From NCBI GenBank assembly GCA_025359215.1, contig JANYHE010000087.1:1-47180 (forward strand): DNA of 47,180 bases, given 5' to 3'. How positions within the stretch are numbered: position 1 is the stretch's first letter; each line of letters starts with the position of its first letter. The DNA comes from Hyphomicrobiales bacterium. GTDB taxonomy: Bacteria; Pseudomonadota; Alphaproteobacteria; Rhizobiales; Aestuariivirgaceae. Shown piece by piece: positions 2,942 to 38,865 of the stretch. The translations under genes and the position numbers were made by a program. The notes under the pieces were generated by a model. The model made no database searches. It was not told where the DNA came from and saw nothing but the letters and a program-made list of their open reading frames with translations.

Positions 2942-5599
2942 ATGACGGGCCTTGCGCAAATTCGTTCGACATTTCTGGACTATTTCAAAAAGCAGGGCCA
3001 CGAGATTGTGCCTTCGTCTTCGCTGGTGCCGCGCAATGATCCCACATTGATGTTTGCCAATTCCGGCATGGTGCAGTTCAAAAACGTGTTTACGGGTGCC
3101 GAAAAGCGCCCTTACACCCGCGCAACAACTGCTCAGAAATGTGTGCGGGCTGGCGGCAAACACAATGACCTCGACAATGTGGGCTATACTGCGCGCCACC
3201 ACACATTTTTTGAAATGCTGGGAAACTTTTCTTTCGGCGATTATTTTAAAGCAAATGCTGTCGAATGGGCTTGGAACTTAGTCACCAAGGAATATGGCCT
3301 GCCAGCCGATAAGCTGACTGTCACAGTCTATCACACCGACGATGAGGCCTTTAATCTTTGGAAAAAGATTGCCGGATTACCCGACAGCCGCATTATCCGC
3401 ATTCCCACCGCCGATAATTTTTGGGCGATGGGAGACACGGGACCTTGCGGTCCATGCTCTGAAATATTCTTTGATCACGGCGATAAAATCTGGGGCGGAC
3501 CTCCCGGTTCTGCCGAGGCCGATGGCGATCGTTTCATTGAAATCTGGAATCTCGTGTTCATGCAATATGAGCAGCTGAACAAGGAAGAGCGCGTGAGCCT
3601 CCCTAAGCCTTCGATTGATACGGGCATGGGTTTGGAGCGCATTGCAGCCGTGTTGCAAGGCACGCACGACAATTATGAAACGGATTTGTTCCGTGCGCTC
3701 ATTTCCAACATTGTCGAAAATACGGGCGTCCCTGCTGAAGGAAAGAATAAAGCTTCGAACCGTGTGATTGCCGATCATTTGCGGGCTTCATCCTTCCTTA
3801 TTGCCGATGGTGTGTTGCCTTCAAATGAAGGTCGTGGCTATGTGCTACGCCGCATTATGCGCCGCGCCATGCGTCATGCTGAGCTTTTGGGCATGCGCGA
3901 ACCATTAATGTGGAAATTGGTGCCAGCCTTAGTGCGCGAAATGGGAGCGGCTTACCCGGAGCTTAGCCGTGCTCAGCCCATGATTACAGAAACATTGAAG
4001 CTGGAAGAATCGCGCTTTCGCAACACGTTGCAGCGCGGCCTTAAGCTTTTGGATGAGGATTCTGCTGGTTTACAAAAAGGCGATGTGTTCTCTGGTGAAA
4101 CGGCATTTAAGCTCTATGACACCTATGGCTTCCCACTGGACCTCACGCAGGATGCTTTGCGTTCGCGTGATATCACGGTTGATACCACTGCCTTTGCCGC
4201 TTCGATGGCGAAACAAAAGGCTGATGCGCGCGCGGCTTGGAAAGGTTCGGGCGAAGCCAAAACTGAAACAGTGTGGTTTGAAATTCGCGAGCGCGTGGGC
4301 GGCACAGAATTCTTAGGTTATGACACTGAGCAGGCCGAAGGCGAAGTGATGGCCATGGCCAGTGAAGGCCGCGATGTTAGTGTTTTAAGCGCTGGTATGA
4401 GCGGCTCAATCATCGTGAACCAAACCCCATTTTATGCTGAATCGGGTGGTCAAACCGGCGACCATGGTGTGATCACCGGGGCTGATGGTTCAGTTTTTAT
4501 TGTGACAGAAACACAGAAAAAGCTGGGTGATTTGTTTGTGCACCAGGGCCGTGTTGAAAATGGCACGTTCAAACTTGGTGTGGCTGTGGAAATGAAAGTT
4601 GATCATGCGCGCCGTTCTGGCAACCGCATGCACCATTCAGCCACACATCTGTTGCACGAAGCATTGCGCCGTGTGTTGGGCGATCATGTGGCACAGAAGG
4701 GATCGCTTGTAGAACCTGGCCGACTTCGGTTTGATTTTTCTCACACCAAAGGTTTGAGTGCTGAAGAGCTGGCAAAAACAGAGGCTATTGCCAATAGCAT
4801 TGTTCTGCAAAATGATGCAGTGAGCACGCGGTTGCTTTCGGTTGATGCTGCTATTGCTGAGGGTGCCATGGCGCTGTTTGGCGAAAAATATGGTGATGAA
4901 GTGCGCGTTGTTTCCATGGGGCGCAATGAGGGCGATGCAAAGCGCCCCATCTATTCGCTTGAACTTTGCGGAGGCACGCATGTGGCCCGCACAGGCGACA
5001 TTGGGCTGGTGAAAGTGATCGCTGAAAGCGGCACGGCGGCAGGCGTTCGCCGCTTAGAAGCTTTGGCAGGCGATGCTGCGCTGGCTTATCTGAACCAACA
5101 AGATGAGCGCGTGCAAGCTGCTGCTGCCGCTTTGAAATCTTCTCCCGCTGAAATGCTGACACGCATAAAGGCTTTGCTAGACGACCGCAAAAAAATGGAA
5201 CGCGAATTGACTGAGGCGCGCAAGGCCTTGGCCATGGGGGGCGCAGGTTCTGGTGGTGGTGCTGAAATTGCCGATGTTAACGGTGTTACGTTTTTAGGCC
5301 GCGTTGTGCGCGGTGTTGCCACACAAGATTTGAAAGGCATGGCAACAGAAGGTTTGAAAAAACTGGGCTCAGGTGTTGTGGCATTGGTTGCTGTTTCTGA
5401 GGACAATAAGGGTGCTTGCGTTGTGGCCGTAAGCGCCGACTTGACCGCGCGGTTTAACGCAGTTGAATTGGTGAAGGCTGGCTCAATTGCTCTTGGTGGC
5501 AAAGGCGGCGGTGGACGGCCCGACATGGCGCAAGCCGGCGGGCCAGATGGCAACAAAGCGGATGAAGCCGTTTTGGCCGTGAAAGCCGCGTTAGGCTAA
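2942..5599 (+). CDS. alaS: Alanyl-tRNA synthetase
   Basis: This class II synthetase charges tRNA-Ala in the cytoplasm. The N-terminal catalytic core is clear ([38 protein letters not shown], and the [14 protein letters not shown] region). It is followed by the tRNA-recognition region, then the editing domain with the zinc ligand sets HHSATH and CGGTH, and a glycine-rich C-terminal C-Ala domain with [19 protein letters not shown] 2942 gives 885 aa and starts [11 protein letters not shown], matching the family N-terminus; the frame extends 20 codons further upstream (2882) but that extension has no family counterpart. It follows recA, a common alphaproteobacterial neighbourhood. Confidence 0.97.
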
Positions 5600-5738
5600 A
5601 GGCGCCTCTGTTTTGTGTCCTGATCGGGCTATTGTTCTGGCGGCAAATATCAGCTTAGACGGCGGGTTTTGAAATAGAGTAGCGAACAGAGCTGCACTGG
5701 CAACCTACGGATGTATTTGCCTTTTTTATATACCTTCT

Positions 5739-5756
5739 CAACTCTTTAGAGAGTTG
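5739..5756. other. Perfect hairpin in the alaS to histidine-kinase gap
   Basis: CAACTCT (5739-5745) and AGAGTTG (5750-5756) form a perfect 7-bp stem with a TTAG loop, followed by TTTA. It lies in the 266-base gap 5600-5865. The T run is too short for a confident terminator, so it may end alaS transcription weakly or be an operator for the signalling operon downstream. I see nothing else definite in this gap. Confidence 0.4.
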
Positions 5757-5865
5757 TTTACTATATGTTTGCGATGATCGCTTGGGGGAATTGAAATCTA
5801 TTTGCCGGGTTCTGAGCAGAATGCGGCGCTAGTTCCTGCAATTACTGACCCGAGGCTTCATAAAA

Positions 5866-7680
5866 ATGGTAAATATTATCGCGTCGAGAGCTGCTGCATA
5901 TCGGCTTTCTTGGATTATTGCTGCTTTAATGGTGCCGATTGTTTTCTTCGGCTTTTTTATGCACAAGACACTTTTTGAGGAATCACAATTATTGCATCGT
6001 GAGCAGGACGGTGCTGCTCTCATCAACCTTCTTATTCCAATCTATGTTGGTGCTGCTGGTGATAAAATTGAAGTGGCAGATATCTCGGCACTTGCCACTC
6101 TGGGACCAAAGTATGTTCAGAACTTAGACGTGAATTCGGCCTTTGATCAACTTATTAAAACCCTCAACGAAACCGAGAGGGACTATTCGGCAGTATTGGT
6201 TGCATCACGAGAATTGACGAGTGCAACAACCGATAGCTCAAAAATTATTCTGGATGCAAAGGCAGAGACCTACTATTTGGCGACGACAAGCGGTGAGGGT
6301 TTTCCCAGCCTTGTAGATCTTTTCAAGACTCTTCAAAAAGGCACGGTACGCTATCTGGTGAATAGCGCATCCAGTGCTGAAATTTTGGCACCCGTTTTGT
6401 TGGCTGTAAGTAATTTGGACCTGACGTCGGCTCAGACCATTAATAGCATTCATAAGGCCTATCAAAACTCTGATCATTCTGAAATTTATAAACCACTTTT
6501 TGAAGCGGGTGACGCAATTGATCAGCGGATTTCACGTCACAGCAAAAATATAAGTATATATTTTGCGCGTCGAGATGGGATGGCAAATAAAACTCTCTTG
6601 GAAGTTGCTCAAGATGCCCAACCCATTCTGGATGAATATCGCAATGCGTGGGGTCAAGCGAACGCTCGATTCAGTGTGCTTTTAGAGCAGCGGGCCAACG
6701 AAATTCAAAACAAAATTATTGCCAATATTTTTATTGGGGCAGCTTCCGTTATTGTTGGCCTTGGGCTCGCATTAGCAATGTTTCGTTCGACATTGAGACG
6801 TCTGGATGATGTTGAGTTGGCTCATCACCAAGCTGAAGATGCGCGCAATGAAGCGGTGGCCTTGGCCAATAGCATTTCTACGATCAATGAAGATGTGGTG
6901 CGCATCAACCATGAACTTTCGGCCAACATGAAGAAGCTCAAAAGTGCGCAAGATGAACTGGTCAAAAAGGGCCGCATGGAGCAAATGGGGCAATTGACAG
7001 CCACCATTGCTCATGAACTTCGTAACCCACTTGGTGCCGTTCGTACATCGGCATTTTTGATTGAACGCAAGATCAAAGATAAGGGTCTGGGCGTTGAGCC
7101 ACAGCTGGCGCGGATTAACAATGGCATCACGCGGTGCGATAACATAATCACGCAGCTGCTAGATTTTTCTCGCACTAAGAAATTATCGGCCAGAGCCGAT
7201 GATCTTGATCAATGGCTGGCCAAAACAATCGAAGAAGAGGCAAAGAGCCTCCCAGCGGCTGTCGAGATTCATTGCAATTTGGGGATGAATGGTTTGTTGG
7301 TGCCGTTTGATCCTTCACGATTGCAACGCGCCATTATAAATCTCGTTTCGAATGCGTCGGAGGCGATGGTGGGTAATGGTGAAGATGCTTCACGCTTTGC
7401 AGTGGCCAACCCGATCATTACGATTTGTAGTGAGGTTGTTGGTGACTTTGCAAAGATTTCAATTTCAGACAATGGACCGGGGATTTCTCCGGAAAATATA
7501 TCCAAGATCCGGGAACCTTTGTTTACGACAAAGAGCTTTGGGACGGGACTTGGGATTCCTGCGGTGGAGCAAATTGCGACACAGCATGGTGGCACTTTAG
7601 AAGTGACTTCAGTTTTAGGGCAGGGGGCGACTTTTACAATTAAAATTCCAATTGCTGGAACAATCGAGGCTGCCGCATAA
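5866..7680 (+). CDS. Membrane sensor histidine kinase (periplasmic sensor)
   Basis: A 604-residue sensor kinase. TM1 is at about residues 12-33 and TM2 at about 284-307, enclosing a roughly 250-residue, mostly helical periplasmic domain that I do not recognise. A charged coiled-coil-like linker (about 310-370) leads to the dimerisation/phosphoacceptor helix, with His383 in IAHELRNPLG. The ATPase domain has the N box NLVSNASEAM, G1 DNGPGIS, the F box EPLFTTKSFG and G2 GTGLGIP. The stop overlaps the start of the next kinase (TAATG at 7678-7682), so the two are translationally coupled. The kinase core is nearly identical to that of the next gene, indicating tandem duplication followed by sensor swapping. 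The stimulus is unknown. Confidence 0.9.
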   Translation: MVNIIASRAAAYRLSWIIAALMVPIVFFGFFMHKTLFEESQLLHREQDGAALINLLIPIYVGAAGDKIEVADISALATLGPKYVQNLDVNSAFDQLIKTLNETERDYSAVLVASRELTSATTDSSKIILDAKAETYYLATTSGEGFPSLVDLFKTLQKGTVRYLVNSASSAEILAPVLLAVSNLDLTSAQTINSIHKAYQNSDHSEIYKPLFEAGDAIDQRISRHSKNISIYFARRDGMANKTLLEVAQDAQPILDEYRNAWGQANARFSVLLEQRANEIQNKIIANIFIGAASVIVGLGLALAMFRSTLRRLDDVELAHHQAEDARNEAVALANSISTINEDVVRINHELSANMKKLKSAQDELVKKGRMEQMGQLTATIAHELRNPLGAVRTSAFLIERKIKDKGLGVEPQLARINNGITRCDNIITQLLDFSRTKKLSARADDLDQWLAKTIEEEAKSLPAAVEIHCNLGMNGLLVPFDPSRLQRAIINLVSNASEAMVGNGEDASRFAVANPIITICSEVVGDFAKISISDNGPGISPENISKIREPLFTTKSFGTGLGIPAVEQIATQHGGTLEVTSVLGQGATFTIKIPIAGTIEAAA

Positions 7681-21530: not shown

Positions 21531-21687
21531 TCATCCTTCTTCGCGCGTAAGCGTGGGGAAGGTGGATCGCGCCTCTTTCTTGGCGCGAGACGGATGGGGT
21601 GGTCGGAGTGGAGTTTTGCTGCCACCGCCCCATCCGTCTTGCGCAAAACCGCGCAATCCACCTTCCCCACTTCGTGGAGAAGGATGA
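21531..21687. repeat. Large imperfect inverted repeat between two genes
   Basis: The left arm (21531-21603) and the reverse complement of the right arm (21621-21687) share long runs, including GTGGGGAAGGTGGAT and AGACGGATGGGG. About 17 bases separate the arms. The element ends three bases before the purL stop on the opposite strand. It resembles non-autonomous palindromic elements (MITE or REP/RIME class). Short open frames through it are artefacts. Confidence 0.8.
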
Positions 21688-21690
21688 GAG

Positions 21691-23877
21691 TTAACTCGCC
21701 ATATAATTCGGGAACCAGCCTTCATGAGAGGTGCGCAACTCTGCCACGGCGATTTCGGTTTTGCCGATGGCAAGGGTTGGATCGGTTGTGACGGTTCCAA
21801 TGCGGATAATATCGACCCCTGCCACGTGGGCTTGGGTGATGATTTTTGCGGCTTCGGTGTGTTTGCAGGTGAGTACATAACGCGCTTGATCTTCGCTGAA
21901 GAGATGCTCGTGGCTCAAAGCATCGATGGTGGCACCGAGCGAAGTGGGCAAGGCCATTTCGATCACTGTCGTTACCAAGCCGCCGTCAGAAATGTCATGT
22001 ACTGCAGTCACTTGGCTGTGGTTGATCAAGTTTCGCACGAAGTCGCCGTTTTTCTTTTCTGTGGCTAAATCCACTGGCGGGGGCGCGCCTTCTTCGCGGC
22101 CCAGAATTTCTCTTAAATAAATGGATTGGCCCAAATGTGTGCCATGACCACCGACTAGCAAAATGGCATCGCCTACGGATTTGAAATGCTTGGTGGTCAT
22201 TTTGCTCAAATCCTTGAGCAGGCCGACACCGCCGATGGCGGGGGTGGGCAAAATGGCTTTGCCATTGGTTTCGTTATAGAGCGAAACGTTGCCGGAGACG
22301 ACTGGGTAATCCAGTGCGCGGCACGCAGCGTCGATGCCCCTCAACGCAAACACAATCTGCCCCATGATTTCGGGCTTTTCTGGATTGCCGAAATTGAGAT
22401 TATCCGTAATGGCGATGGGTTCAGCACCCACACACGTGAGATTGCGCCAGGTTTCGGCCACGGCTTGCTTGCCGCCCTCATAGGGATCGGCCTGTACATA
22501 GCGCGGTGTCACATCGGTTGAAACAGCAATTGCTTTATTGTAGCCAACGCGCACCACGCCTGCATCGCCGCCGGGAATTTGGGCGGTGTTGCTGCCGATG
22601 AGCGAGTCATATTGTTCCCAAACCCAACGCCTCGAGCACATATCGGGGCTGCCGATGATTTTGATAATGGCAGCTTTCAGGTCGGCAGGCGCTGGCACAT
22701 TGGTGAGCAGAGCGAGCTTTTTTGGTTCGACCCATGGGCGGTCATATTCCGGCGCTTCATCCCCCATTTGCTTGATCGGCAAATCAGCTTTCACTTCACC
22801 TTGATGTTTAATAATAAAGCGCAAGGTGTTGGTTGTCTTGCCGATTATGGCAAAATCCAAGCCCCATTTGTGGAAAATGGCTTCGGCTTGTTTTTCGAGT
22901 TCCGGCCGCAGCACCATCAGCATCCGCTCTTGGGATTCAGACAGCATCATTTCGTAGGCGCTCATATTTTCTTCGCGGCATGGCACCATATCTAGGTCAA
23001 GCTCGATGCCGAGATCGCCTTTCGCACCCATTTCAACTGCTGACGATGTGAGGCCCGCAGCGCCCATATCTTGAATGGCGATGACGGCACCTGAGGCCAT
23101 CAATTCCAAGCAGGCTTCGAGCAGGCATTTTTCTGTGAAGGGGTCGCCCACTTGCACGGTGGGGCGTTTTTCATCGGCCTTGTTGTCAAATTCTGCACTC
23201 GCCATGGTGGCGCCGTGGATGCCATCACGGCCCGTTTTTGCGCCAAGGTAAACCACAGGCAGGCCCACACCTTTGGCTTTGGACAGGAAAATTTTATCGG
23301 TGTCGGCAATGCCAACGGCCATGGCGTTGACCAGAATGTTGCCATTATAGCTTTCGTGAAAATTCACTTCGCCGCCGATGGTGGGAACCCCAAATGAATT
23401 TCCATAGCCGCCCACGCCCGCCACAACGCCCGAAACGAGATGGCGGGTTTTGGGATGATCAGGTGAGCCGAAACGCAGTGCATTCAGTGCTGCAATGGGA
23501 CGAGCCCCCATAGTGAACACATCGCGCAGTATGCCTCCCACACCGGTAGCTGAACCCTGATAAGGTTCAATGAAACTTGGATGGTTGTGGCTTTCCATTT
23601 TGAAGATGATGGCTTGGCCGTCATCAATATCAATCACGCCTGCATTTTCGCCGGGGCCGATCAAAACGCGCTCACCTGTGGTGGGCAGCTTTTTCAGATG
23701 TTTCTTCGATGATTTATAAGAACAATGCTCGTTCCACATGGCCGAACAAATGCCAAGTTCGGTCATGGTTGGGGTGCGGCCTAGCAGGTCTAGAAAGCGC
23801 TGATATTCATCGGGCTTCAGGCCGTGGGCTTTAACAATTTCTGGGGTGATTGCGGGTTCGGCGGCGTGTTTCATCAT
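21691..23877 (-). CDS. purL: Phosphoribosylformylglycinamidine synthase, large subunit
   Basis: The short-form PurL (728 aa) catalyses step four of purine synthesis with PurQ (glutaminase) and PurS. Landmarks: [20 protein letters not shown], the ATP-site [55 protein letters not shown], and [15 protein letters not shown]. The last is the glycine-rich segment of the AIR-synthase fold. The start is ATG 23877 (a second ATG is at 23874). It is separated from purQ by a PAP2 gene and a possible small gene, so it probably needs its own promoter. Confidence 0.97.
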
Positions 23878-34872: not shown

Positions 34873-35655
34873 CTATTTGCCTTGCCATGTGGGTTTACGC
34901 TTTTCAGCAAAGGCTTTGGCTCCTTCAAGCTGATCTTGGCTAGAATAAAGTTTGTCGACGGTTGCCAGTTTGCGCTTCGTTACCATGTCAAAAGCGACAT
35001 GGACGGGAATATGGCTGGTTTCGCGGTCAATTTCTTTGATGGCTGCGAAAACCAAGGGCGGGCCATCGGCCAATTGCGTTGCCAGTGCGCGGGCGCGGGC
35101 CATGAGTTCGGCAGCGGGCACAATTTCATTGATTAAACCCCAATGCTTAGCCTCCGTTGTGTCCATCACACGGCCTGTGAACAAAAGTTCCATTGCAACA
35201 TGATAGGGAATGCGGCGGGGCAGCTTTATTGTGGCAGCATCGGCCACTGTGCCGGACCGAATTTCGGGCAATGAGAAGGTGGCATGCTCGGCGGCAATAA
35301 TGATGTCGCAAGAAATCATAATTTCAAAGCCACCGCCAAAGGCGAGACCGTTAACCGCGCAGATCACAGGCTTGTTGAGGCCGGGCAATTGTTGCAAGCC
35401 CCCAAAGCCGCCCACACCATAATCGGAGTCCGGTGCTTCGCCTGCTGCTGCGGCTTTCAAATCCCAGCCGGGGCAGAAGAATTTATCGCCTGTGCTGGTG
35501 AGAATGGCAACGCGCAATTCAGGATCATCACGGAAGCTGGCAAAAATATCACCCATGATGCGCGAAGTGGCCGCATCAATTGCGTTGGCTTTGGGGCGGT
35601 CGATGGTGACTTCGAAGATTGCGCCGCGCTTTTCGGTTCTAATCGGAGTTGTCAT
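34873..35655 (-). CDS. caiD: CaiD-like crotonobetainyl-CoA (carnitinyl-CoA) hydratase
   Basis: A 260-residue enoyl-CoA hydratase that follows E. coli CaiD closely as I remember it: DRPKANAIDAATSRIMGDIF, FRDDPELRVAIL, KFFCPGWDLKAAAAGEAPDS, NGLAFGGGFEIMISCD, FSLPEIRSGTV, and the end FAEKRKPTW. The two Glu positions important in CaiD (FGGGFE and LPE) are kept. CaiD interconverts crotonobetainyl-CoA and carnityl-CoA. It is the last gene of a six-gene operon: its ATG overlaps the ligase stop (ATGA at 35652-35655). The neighbours carnitine dehydrogenase and a BKACE enzyme support the assignment. Confidence 0.8.
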   Translation of the reverse strand: MTTPIRTEKRGAIFEVTIDRPKANAIDAATSRIMGDIFASFRDDPELRVAILTSTGDKFFCPGWDLKAAAAGEAPDSDYGVGGFGGLQQLPGLNKPVICAVNGLAFGGGFEIMISCDIIIAAEHATFSLPEIRSGTVADAATIKLPRRIPYHVAMELLFTGRVMDTTEAKHWGLINEIVPAAELMARARALATQLADGPPLVFAAIKEIDRETSHIPVHVAFDMVTKRKLATVDKLYSSQDQLEGAKAFAEKRKPTWQGK

Positions 35656-37709
35656 GTGTTCCTCATCTTAATCAACGCATCTGCTGCTACCGCACCTTTT
35701 GGTAAAATGAAAAGTGGATTGATGTCGAGTTCTTCGATCTGATCTTTATATGTTGCTGCGAATGCGCAAACAGATTTTATGGCTTCGAGAGTGGCCTTTT
35801 GATCTCCAGACTTTCCACGAAAGCCTTCAATGAGTTTCCAAATCCGTAAACTCTTCAGTGCACGGAGGATTTCAGTTTCGGTTGTGGGTAGGATCAGCGT
35901 TACAGAGTCTTTCAGAAGCTCAGTAAATATGCCACCTGCGCCGATGACCAATGCAAGGCCAAATTGCGGGTCGCGGGTGAGGCCGATAATTAATTCAGCC
36001 ACCGCACCTTGCACCATTTTTTCGATGAGAAATTCATTGCCCAACTTGGCCATGCGGGTGGCAGAGGCTTCGACTTCGGCTGCATTGCGAAGGTTGAGGG
36101 CTACGCCGCCGGCTTCAGTTTTGTGGAGGATTGTGGTGGAGGAGATTTTGAGAGCGACAGGGTAACCGAGGGCGTTGGCGGTTTTTACGGCATCGCTGAC
36201 GCTGCAAATCTGGCCTTCGGGAACTGCAAGGCCGAATGTGTTGAGCAGCACTTTCCCTTCAAATTCGGTCAACCCGTCGGAAGACGGAACCCAGACATCC
36301 CCCATAGGCGCTTGTTGTACTGGTTCCCGACTTTCGTCGGGATGACCACTTAATTTCCAACTCTTCCCAATCATCGCCGCCGCTTCAAACGCAGTCAGTG
36401 CATCGTCCAATCCCATCATCGGCGTTATGTTATCTGCGCTCAATTGCGCAGCCATTTCCAGCGGCATGGATTCGGGCAATGAAGCCACGATTACTGCGCG
36501 GGCATTATTTGCCTTGGCTGCGGCAGTGAAAGCACGCGACGTTTTATACCATGCGGCGGGGTTCATGTGCGGGTGCGTGGGGACATCCAAGATCAACATG
36601 CCCACGTCAAAACCACCAGACAGTGTTGCTGTGAATGTCGCTTCAAGTTTGGACTCATCACCCCAAATGAAAGTGTGGTAATCGAGCGGGTTATCGACTG
36701 ACACAAACTCATTCAGCGTTGCTGCGACTTTGGTTTTCGTTGCGGCATTGAAGGGCGGAAAAGAGACACTTTTCTCCAACGCCATATCCGCCACCAAGGC
36801 AGCTTCACCGCCAGAGCAACTCAAGGAGACAAGGCGGCTATCATGCAGCGGGCCGCCGTGGTGCAGGAACTTTAGAGTTTCGGCAAAGGCGGTTACCGAT
36901 TTCATGCGGGCGATGCCGTGGCGCTCGAACAGGGCATCGTAAAGATTATCTGCTCCGGAAAGCGAAGATGTGTGGCTCATGGTGACTTTTGCGCCTTGTT
37001 CGGAGCGACCGGTTTTCAGCGCGATAACGGGCTTCTTATGGTGGCGCGCCAGTTCTGCGGCGCGGGCGAAAGCTGATATATCTTTGAGGCCCTCAATGTG
37101 AAGGCCTATGGCCGTGATGCGATCATCGGTGCACAGCGCTTCCAACATGCGGGCCATATCAACATCAGCTTGGTTGCCAATTGCGAAAAGCTGCGCCAAG
37201 GGCAGGGCGCGGCGGCTCATACCGAAATTGCAGGCAATGTTGCCTGACTGTGTGATGATGGCGACGCCGCGCTCACGAATTTCCAACCCATGTTCATCGG
37301 GCCACAAGGCACAACGCGAGAGCGTATTCACAAAGCCATAGCAGTTAGGGCCGAGCAGGGGCATTCCATTTGCTGCGTTGAGAAGTTCAGCTTGGAGTTC
37401 GGTGGCTCCCGCTTCAGCAAAGCCAGCGGCATAGATGACCGCACCGCCGCAGTTTTTAGCGCGCAACTGACGAACGATTTCAACGGTGGGCTCGCGCTTT
37501 ACCGCAACAAAGGCAGCATCGATTGGGCCTGTAATATCATCAACGGATTTCACAGTGGCAATGCCGCCCAGTTCATCACGCTTGGGGTGAACCGCCCAGA
37601 TTTTGCCAGTGAAGCCCAGTTCGCGCGTGCGCGTAATCGCGATGGCACATTCATTGCCACCGATGAAGGCGATGGACGTGGGGTTGAGTAGACGTTGCAA
37701 ATTAGCCAC
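35652..37709 (-). CDS. NDP-forming acyl-CoA ligase, probably for betaines, with in-frame palindrome
   Basis: A 685-residue ADP-forming acyl-CoA synthetase. The N-terminal CoA-binding Rossmann part starts LLNPTSIAFIGGNECAIAIT, the succinyl-CoA-ligase-like part has LLGPNCYGFVNT, IITQSGNIACNFGMSR and the acceptor region VTMSHTSSLSGADNLYDALF. A C-terminal ATP-grasp domain starts near residue 485 (EFEGKVLLNTFGLAVPEG, then GYPVALKISS). By position it would load gamma-butyrobetaine, crotonobetaine or carnitine onto CoA. The linker between the halves (residues 455-481) is encoded by a palindromic element. GTG start at 37709 overlaps the dehydrogenase stop by eight bases. Confidence 0.8.
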   Translation of the reverse strand: MANLQRLLNPTSIAFIGGNECAIAITRTRELGFTGKIWAVHPKRDELGGIATVKSVDDITGPIDAAFVAVKREPTVEIVRQLRAKNCGGAVIYAAGFAEAGATELQAELLNAANGMPLLGPNCYGFVNTLSRCALWPDEHGLEIRERGVAIITQSGNIACNFGMSRRALPLAQLFAIGNQADVDMARMLEALCTDDRITAIGLHIEGLKDISAFARAAELARHHKKPVIALKTGRSEQGAKVTMSHTSSLSGADNLYDALFERHGIARMKSVTAFAETLKFLHHGGPLHDSRLVSLSCSGGEAALVADMALEKSVSFPPFNAATKTKVAATLNEFVSVDNPLDYHTFIWGDESKLEATFTATLSGGFDVGMLILDVPTHPHMNPAAWYKTSRAFTAAAKANNARAVIVASLPESMPLEMAAQLSADNITPMMGLDDALTAFEAAAMIGKSWKLSGHPDESREPVQQAPMGDVWVPSSDGLTEFEGKVLLNTFGLAVPEGQICSVSDAVKTANALGYPVALKISSTTILHKTEAGGVALNLRNAAEVEASATRMAKLGNEFLIEKMVQGAVAELIIGLTRDPQFGLALVIGAGGIFTELLKDSVTLILPTTETEILRALKSLRIWKLIEGFRGKSGDQKATLEAIKSVCAFAATYKDQIEELDINPLFILPKGAVAADALIKMRNT
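36267..36347. repeat. 81-bp palindromic element inserted in frame in the ligase gene
   Basis: Read on the minus strand, the element starts GGTCATCCCGACGAAAGTC and ends with the inverted copy of the same 28-base arm; 22 of 28 positions match. Each arm is itself a hairpin: CCGAC-GAAA-GTCGG and CCGTC-TTCC-GACGG. The two stems differ by a compensatory A-T/T-A pair, so pairing is preserved. The element is exactly 27 codons and begins on a codon boundary (Gly455 to Thr481 of the ligase), giving GHPDESREPVQQ...VWVPSSDGLT. The layout is like REP/MITE pairs, and its position in a protein linker like Rickettsia palindromic elements. Confidence 0.85.
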
Positions 37710-38865
37710 CCAGCGGCCTCAACATGGCGCGTGAGATGATGTGGCGTTGAATTTCACTGGTACCTTCCCAGATGCGTTCAACTCTCGCGTCACGCCAGAT
37801 GCGCTCTAATGGCAAATCACTCATCAGGCCCATGCCGCCATGGATTTGAATGGCCTCATCGGCGATCATGGCCAAGGCTTCAGTGGCTTTTAGTTTCGCC
37901 ATGGCCATATCCATTTCGGTCACAGTTTTCTGATCAAATTTCCAAGCGGCATCGAAGGTGAGAAGTTCTGCTGCGCGCAGTTCCATTGCCATATCAGCCA
38001 ATTTGAAGGACACACCTTGAAATTTGCCAATCTGCTGGCCGAATTGTTGGCGATCAACTGCATATTGTGTGGCAAGTTTGAGTGCACGATCGGCGCGGCC
38101 CAAACACGTTGAGGCCACTTGCAGCCGCGTTGCCCCCAGCCATTCATTGGCCACTTCAAAGCCCTGATGCACTTCACCCAAGATTTGGGATTTGTTCACC
38201 CGACAATCTTGAAATTCTAAAATGCAATTTTGATAACCACGATGCGATACATTTTTATAGCCATCGCGCACGGTGAAACCTTTGGTGCCTTTGTCAATCA
38301 GAAAAGCAGTGATGAGTTTTTTTGGTCCACGTGCTGTTTCTTCTTCGCCAGTGGCTGCAAACAGAATGACGAACGTGGCTTCATCGGCGTGGCTGATGAA
38401 ATGTTTAGTGCCGTTGATGACGAAATCATCACCATCTTGTTTTGCGAATGTTTTCATGCCGCGCAAATCTGAGCCGATGCCAGGTTCCGTTAGCGCTAAA
38501 CAATCTGACGCCTGGCCTTTGATGGCGGGATAAAGATATTTTTCACGCTGTTCATCATTGCAGGCCAGCAGAATGTTGGATGGGCGGAACACGCTATTCC
38601 AATGCAGTGCATAGGATGCTTTGCCCAGTTCGCGCTCGTATAGGCACCACGTTAATGTGTCGAGCCCAGCACCACCCACTTCTGCTGGCATGTTGGCCGC
38701 ATAAAGGCCGGCGATCATTGCCTTGGCTTTAATTTCATCGCGCAATTCGGGCCTTAGGATTCCAGTAGCCTCCACTTCGGCTTCATGCGGATAGAGTTCT
38801 TTCTCGACGAAATCGCGCGTCGTTTTAACAATCATTTCTTGTTCTTCGGTGAGTGCGAAATTCAT
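37702..38865 (-). CDS. Acyl-CoA dehydrogenase, candidate gamma-butyrobetainyl-CoA dehydrogenase
   Basis: A 387-residue flavoprotein with all family landmarks: MNFALTEEQEMIVKTTRDFV, LALTEPGIGSDLRGMKT, GTKHFISHADEATF, RQQFGQQIGKFQGVSFKLAD, QIHGGMGLMSDLPLERIWRD, and IWEGTSEIQRHI with the catalytic Glu. The length is normal. In the operon it would oxidise a betainyl-CoA ester to crotonobetainyl-CoA, feeding CaiD; the specificity is inference, since family members differ little in sequence. It overlaps the ligase start by eight bases and follows the SDR after three bases. Confidence 0.85.
   Translation of the reverse strand: MNFALTEEQEMIVKTTRDFVEKELYPHEAEVEATGILRPELRDEIKAKAMIAGLYAANMPAEVGGAGLDTLTWCLYERELGKASYALHWNSVFRPSNILLACNDEQREKYLYPAIKGQASDCLALTEPGIGSDLRGMKTFAKQDGDDFVINGTKHFISHADEATFVILFAATGEEETARGPKKLITAFLIDKGTKGFTVRDGYKNVSHRGYQNCILEFQDCRVNKSQILGEVHQGFEVANEWLGATRLQVASTCLGRADRALKLATQYAVDRQQFGQQIGKFQGVSFKLADMAMELRAAELLTFDAAWKFDQKTVTEMDMAMAKLKATEALAMIADEAIQIHGGMGLMSDLPLERIWRDARVERIWEGTSEIQRHIISRAMLRPLGG

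Follow-up and report, generated by a model that had tools for sequence, protein, structure and literature searches.

The acyl-CoA ligase gene of the window (the whole 47,180-nucleotide stretch of DNA analysed here, which is one of the 148 contigs, C67, of the 3.02 Mb genome G000) carries an 81-bp element that is an inverted dimer of a CGTC-type REP, dispersed in the same genome. We assign a probability of about 0.7 to a reading in which such a dimer has lodged in the ligase linker, where the extra disordered residues between the CoA-ligase and ATP-grasp halves would probably be tolerated, and in which dimers of this kind are spread by a solitary GIY-YIG endonuclease. In Alphaproteobacteria, REPs are associated with GIY-YIG genes tightly and type by type; the mobilisation of the repeats by the nuclease is what we infer.

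In-frame palindromes are already known, both from the Rickettsia palindromic elements (RPEs), which lie in frame in protein genes (PMC3733652, PMC10969869), and from intragenic REPs (PMC3733652). According to the passages of a 2013 survey that describe them, CGTC REPs have a GTC head followed by AT, a 4-base loop and a CCA tail, occur mostly as dimers, are commonest in Alphaproteobacteria and sometimes lie inside genes (Di Nocera et al. 2013, PMC3733652). The same passages equate RPE-6 and RPE-4 of R. conorii with CGTC-1 and CGTC-4, and report the CGTC repeats as having no association with transposase genes, leaving the question of how these REPs spread without a transposase of their own (PMC3733652).

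The element (Table 1) is an inverted repeat on the minus strand, with 28-base arms matching at 22 of 28 positions. Scanning the window for palindromes (28-base arms, at least 22 matches, spacer up to about 60) gave two places, 36267-36347 and 21553-21670, and three block-shuffled windows held no palindrome of at least 22/28 strength. Folded as RNA, the coding strand of the element reaches -38.5 kcal/mol (z -3.33, with 0/200 shuffles as good); folded as DNA, the + strand gives a z of -2.37, with 8/200 shuffles as good. A palindrome arisen by chance, considered as a candidate, is ruled out by the genome-wide copies, the shuffled windows and the RNA-fold shuffles. The window arm is CCCGACGAAAGTCGGG, and the window arm heads read GGTC. 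The core of the first arm (36325-36346) is identical to the common genome arm, from which the core of the other (36268-36289) differs at 5 of 22 positions. The initial annotation, made from the DNA letters, had placed the element and its frame correctly, as the scan, the shuffled windows and codon arithmetic agree on its coordinates, reading frame and 22/28 palindromy; on the minus-strand CDS (35652-37709) the element starts on a codon boundary and equals residues 455-481 exactly. The compensatory base-pair change between stems that it had pointed out is present in the two arms (CCCGAC..GTCGGG in one, CCCGTC..GACGG. in the other).

Table 1. Features of the ligase region and of the REP dimer within it (positions in the window).
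Feature	Position	Strand	Remarks
acyl-CoA ligase, host gene	35652..37709	-	CoA_binding_2 / Succ_CoA_lig / ATP-grasp_5; 685 aa, GTG start
acyl-CoA dehydrogenase, upstream of ligase	37702..38865	-	junction with ligase closed in window
enoyl-CoA hydratase, downstream of ligase	34873..35655	-	operon context only
whole element	36267..36347	-	ligase residues 455-481; predicted disordered linker
first REP arm, coding sense	36320..36347	-	G + GTCATCCCGACGAAAGTCGGGAACCAG; encodes part of GHPDESREPV
spacer between arms of inverted dimer	36295..36319	-	
second, inverted REP arm, diverged	36267..36294	-	encodes VPSSDGLT; frame as PAFAGMT and PAFAGV in relatives

The nearest relatives of the ligase in named records are from Hyphomicrobiales metagenome assemblies, followed by Taklimakanibacter and Aestuariivirga, and its NCBIfam matches all lie under their cut-offs. 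TIGR02717, which covers the alpha half and scores below its cut-off, matches up to residue 441, and ATP-grasp_5 begins at residue 479. In an AlphaFold2 model (21-row alignment, mean pLDDT 83.9), residues 460-477 form a coil of pLDDT<50 between helices 434-452 and 482-490, and the sole other segment of pLDDT<50 is 244-250. The proposed interdomain-linker position is therefore supported, with the element before the ATP-grasp domain (from 479) and the low-confidence coil at 460-477. A clean insertion of 27 codons, which had been supposed as well, does not agree with the linker lengths: between 'IG' and 'TE' we count 32 residues in the window vs 25 in the element-free rows counted by hand, and the net gain is about 7 residues, not 27.

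The idea of a dispersed REP- or MITE-like palindrome translated in frame stands, since the gene frame is open through the element and a search of the genome with the arm does find other copies: TCCCGACTTTCGTCGGGATGAC has 21 matches in the 3.02 Mb when up to 3 mismatches are allowed (13 are exact), and the reversed arm, used as a control, has 0 matches in the same genome at the same threshold. Grouped by hand, the 21 matches fall in 14 places, two of which lie inside genes (the ligase and cobN) and the other 12, as judged by eye, outside main open frames. Many of the copies are inverted pairs (GTCATCCCGACGAAAGTCGGGAMCCAG, a spacer, then the arm reversed), with the heads outward and the CCA tails inward. 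A short stem with AT first, a loop of 4-5 bases and a CCA-like tail are present (ATCCCGAC-GAAA-GTCGGGA..CCAG), the first stem pair being lost (A.C) in copies continuing GGGACC; the GTC head is kept in the intact copies inspected, preceded by A, C, G or T, the head that tags the class being CGTC (or TGTC, CCTC). Movement of the element was not observed, nor was a target-site duplication seen by eye in the copies of this genome that were inspected. Being dispersed, mostly intergenic and mostly in inverted dimers, the family is like the CGTC REPs of PMC3733652, as described there, in its GTC, stem, loop, tail, dimers and intragenic copies, and differs from them in the first head base, which here is A, C, G or T, and in flanking solitary GIY-YIG genes. 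With the Rickettsia RPEs, which belong to another order and are likened here by description only (PMC3733652, PMC10969869), it shares the in-frame location in protein genes.

Most of the homologues examined lack these residues in the linker, which is what the initial annotation expected of an insertion. Calling by peptides, plus the DNA of 11 rows, places the element or a remnant of it in 5 of 29 relatives' ligases (L043, L044, L045, L048 and L054, out of L043-L071), of which all but L054 are also detected when the arm is scanned for with up to 4 mismatches; among three further, partial ligases, the one of G022 (L193) has the element and those of G016 and G017 do not. The REP sequence at this place varies: the linker arm is CCCTGCGAAGGCAGGG in G022 and CCCAGCGAAGGCTGGG in G021, a single arm (CCCGGCGAAAGCCGGG) is found in G020, and eroded remnants are seen in G003, G023 and G028. 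In both G022 and G020, the ligase arm is the sole copy of its exact sequence among the matches listed in the genome, and it need not derive from the REP family now active there. One reading frame is nevertheless shared, in the first arm (HPDESREP, HPSEGWDP, HPGESRDP) as in the second (PSSDGLT, PAFAGV, PAFAGMT). Given that, by inspection, the arm is open in its two remaining frames as well, this shared frame suggests one old insertion, followed by compensatory divergence or by overwriting with other REPs. Counted by hand, the linker measures 32 residues in the window and 50 in G021, 24-26 in G020, G003, G028 and G023, and likewise 24-26, about 25, in the element-free rows counted; these lengths imply that host sequence was trimmed. 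Conceivably, the element-free linkers are themselves REPs that have eroded completely. In G022, the contig starts inside the ligase element (C225:1-40, L193), and several fetched GIY-YIG loci likewise end at contig ends, so that the repeat may break assemblies.

In a ligase tree built without the linker columns, and with the partial, element-free G017 left out, all seven element rows fall within one 9-row group (SH-aLRT 99), which also contains the element-free L062 and G016. The presence of the element takes a minimum of 2 changes on this tree, and a strict single clade of element-bearing ligases is rejected by the AU test (p-AU 0.0001), which leaves either a single gain followed by two losses or else two gains. 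The equal lengths of 24-26 residues in the element-free rows and in four others that carry a REP arm or the remnant of one could be taken to mean that selection keeps the linker residues as an ordinary part of the ligase, the palindrome being incidental (an mRNA hairpin or chance). This we regard as extremely improbable, in view of the exact dispersed copies elsewhere in the genome, the REPs of other sequence at the same place and the predicted disorder. The initial annotation was right about the palindrome in the linker and incomplete in having missed these other-sequence REPs, the copy in cobN and the GIY-YIG flank.

The second in-frame copy of this genome lies in cobN (contig C13, about 4737-4815, within an open frame at 3457-6312), where it falls in a variable loop of CobN. 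As judged by eye, REP-like peptides occupy the same loop in 5 of 12 aligned relatives (L295, L297, L298, L299 and L303; those of L298 and L299 look eroded), and none was seen in the loop of the other seven, one partial row (L307) being left out of the alignment. In G003, the cobN arm (C38:61301) is one base off the arms flanking the GIY-YIG gene of that genome on C44. Besides the REP, the CobN of G000 (L294) has another extra stretch (..PFSSGEGGQRPDEVP..), which is similar to a peptide read next to the element on C34 (PLPSGEGARRADEVP); a comparable stretch is in 2 of the other 12 rows, and it is possibly a second kind of in-frame repeat.

On contig C34 of the same genome, five arm copies surround a gene for a 108-residue GIY-YIG protein (PF01541, 62.9 bits against a cut-off of 22.6). 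The upstream arm ends 20 nt before the ATG, the next starts 3 nt past the stop, and the flanking arm is that of the ligase. Because of these five arms, 60 solitary GIY-YIG loci of the genus were taken for a survey, out of 64 rows (G006:C42, G009:C131, G024:C26 and G021:C16 were left out; G006:C42, examined roughly with a score of 63 and an assumed centre, is counted as without a flank in the Mann-Whitney test below). Allowing up to 4 mismatches, 29 of these 60 loci have an arm no more than 300 bp from the domain; 25 have one on both sides, and in 22 the arms on both sides have their heads outward. There are 77 arms in the 48,334 bp near the domain vs 2 in the 135,511 bp elsewhere. The uvrC loci have an arm within 300 bp in 0 of 17 and further off in 1 of 17.

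A pattern-free test, in which the upstream flank is locally aligned with the reverse complement of the downstream flank and a score of at least 34 counts as matched, gives matched flanking inverted repeats at 38 of 58 genus loci, vs 0/104 windows shifted by 1 kb and 0/99 neighbouring ORFs, and at 34 of 67 loci across Alphaproteobacteria, vs 0/133 shifted windows and 1/117 neighbouring ORFs, with the proviso that both kinds of control differ from the real loci in intergenic DNA content and that the 69 class loci were taken down a list with some skipped, thus non-randomly. Unscored were L137 (no domain by profile) and L187 (short flank) in the genus, and L232 and L240 (short flanks) in the class. 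The top score among the 17 uvrC loci is 25. Phylum-wide, 5 of 25 new loci (the best-scoring ones) are flanked vs 0/50 controls, and a generality of the flanking across the phylum is weakly indicated. Solitary GIY-YIG genes with no matched flank detectable amount to 20/58 in the genus, 33/67 in the class and 20/25 in the phylum. In named records of a plasmid collection (12, hand-chosen out of 36 with a match), 10 of 12 are flanked vs 1 of 24 shifted controls; no matched flank was found in Rhizobium K1/93 or in Photobacterium GJ3, the latter of which also has the sole control match. In Neisseria such repeats are dense, so that the GIY-YIG flank there may be chance. On plasmid AZO_p3 of Azospirillum lipoferum 4B (L282), a REP dimer lies on each side of the GIY-YIG gene, which separates sufB from sufC.

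The REPs beside GIY-YIG genes in Alphaproteobacteria are also of other types, with GGCTTG, TCCTGAG and CATTCCA stems, and REP type tracks nuclease clade. With four types hand-defined by patterns after the sequences had been seen (15 of 72 flanked rows belong to none), type takes 6 changes on the nuclease tree, against a lowest value of 18 in 2000 shuffles (n=57), and 17 changes against a shuffle minimum of 30 when all flanked rows are kept (n=72). The trait of being flanked or not takes 26 changes against a minimum of 30 over 128 rows, L187, L232 and L240 counting as unflanked. All 72 flanked domains retain a Y, G, R, H and E, and 71 of them retain one more Y; these conserved Y, Y, G, R, H and E we take to be the GIY, YIG and catalytic residues.

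The number of arms is higher in genomes that have an arm-flanked GIY-YIG gene (Mann-Whitney p 0.008, 25 genus genomes, kinship uncorrected), and arm number goes with the number of all GIY-YIG matches (Spearman 0.50, p 0.012, kinship uncorrected). The main points against mobilisation by GIY-YIG are the unflanked loci and two REP-bearing draft genomes, G017, with 21 arms and only uvrC, and G008, with 44 arms and no arm-flanked gene found. Genomes such as G017, and the report of CGTC REPs without a transposase (PMC3733652), would also fit an ordinary intragenic CGTC REP, with the GIY-YIG gene a mere passenger and mobility coming from an IS, from replication slippage or from a lost transposase. 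We hold this to be unlikely, because REP type co-varies with nuclease clade across families, the active-site-like residues are conserved and the neighbouring ORFs of the same loci are without such flanks.

The inverted-dimer layout resembles that of REPINs, and Y1_Tnp (PF01797) matches exist in 9 of 41 genomes; both count in favour of mobilisation by a RAYT (an HUH transposase), as with GTAG REPs. This partner, which the initial annotation had suggested looking for, is rejected here: PF01797 has no match in G000, in G001 (225 arms) or in G018 (187 arms), and 0 of 10 RAYT loci of relatives have an arm within 600 bases of the domain, whose centre was assumed at base 1501 (wrongly for L096 and L097). 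Two of the ten have an arm further off and three have other inverted repeats scoring at least 34. The GTAG head is absent from the arm copies of G000 that were inspected, and a role of RAYT is thus very unlikely. REPINs and REPtrons, as PMC3733652 describes them, are alike in their inverted dimers and in having a nuclease or transposase gene between REPs, but the gene found here is a GIY-YIG one, not a tyrosine transposase, and the GTAG head is lacking.

Returning to the GIY-YIG nuclease as the preferred mobiliser, the junction between the acyl-CoA dehydrogenase and the ligase holds both kinds of unit. Of the 26 relatives in which it was measured, 12 resemble the window in having a gap of no more than 18 nt; a plain REP dimer lies there in G001, G006 and G018 (gaps of 111-133 nt), and G020 has 427 nt with a REP-GIY-YIG-REP unit (L163, C79:3400-3810), the GIY-YIG frame of which passes through both REP arms without a stop. 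The dimer and the gene-bearing form therefore use the same junction. The other ten relatives have other sequence in it, of 49-482 nt. At the ligase loci L059 and L069, extra frames lie in the same junction of G004 and G025; the one in G004 is presumably acetyltransferase-like, and those in G025 are small and presumably a HicB/HicA-like pair.

In the mechanism that we propose, REP - GIY-YIG gene - REP would be the autonomous form, present in G000 on C34, and the REP dimers would be non-autonomous, MITE-like copies spread by the solitary endonuclease. The nuclease might recognise and nick the REP hairpin or a target, and repair or replication might then copy the element into the break; both steps are guesses. 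Insertions would survive between genes or, if in frame, in protein loops and linkers. In the ligase, a small mobile palindrome would have inserted in frame into the interdomain linker, the place being afterwards trimmed and partly diverged. We lean slightly towards the wider proposal that solitary GIY-YIG nucleases are the missing mobilisers of the CGTC and also of the GGCTTG, TCCTGAG and CATTCCA REPs, with one hairpin per clade, and that their dimer offspring repeatedly become in-frame linkers. A co-varying nuclease between the repeats, its active-site pattern conserved, makes the spread of CGTC REPs testable with one small protein and one hairpin. Additionally, the ligase lets one trace how selfish DNA supplies linkers to proteins, with several REP arm sequences in one linker of related species and a similar situation in cobN.

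Compared with the GIY-YIG homing endonucleases, as presented in PMC1564403, the genes described here are alike in the family of the catalytic domain and in being small nuclease genes, but consist of a solitary domain beside REP hairpins. A search of solved structures with the GIY-YIG protein gave only one chain at E<0.001, that of a UPF0213 protein (1zg2). Among the matches listed in the open-licence literature, preprints apart, no paper links GIY-YIG genes to REPs: the passages of PMC9465073 that name both treat them as accessory genes separate from each other; words starting with 'palindrom' do not occur in the GIY-YIG survey PMC1564403, nor do words starting with 'transposase' or 'nuclease' in a REP survey of 2025 (PMC12306157).

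The other palindrome of the window belongs to a longer repeat of another family (21545-21680, 23/28 arms), which, counting both strands, has 36 match rows at E<=1 in its own genome. It is situated immediately past the end of the gene at 21691-23877, which we take to be purL-like, and short open frames cross it.
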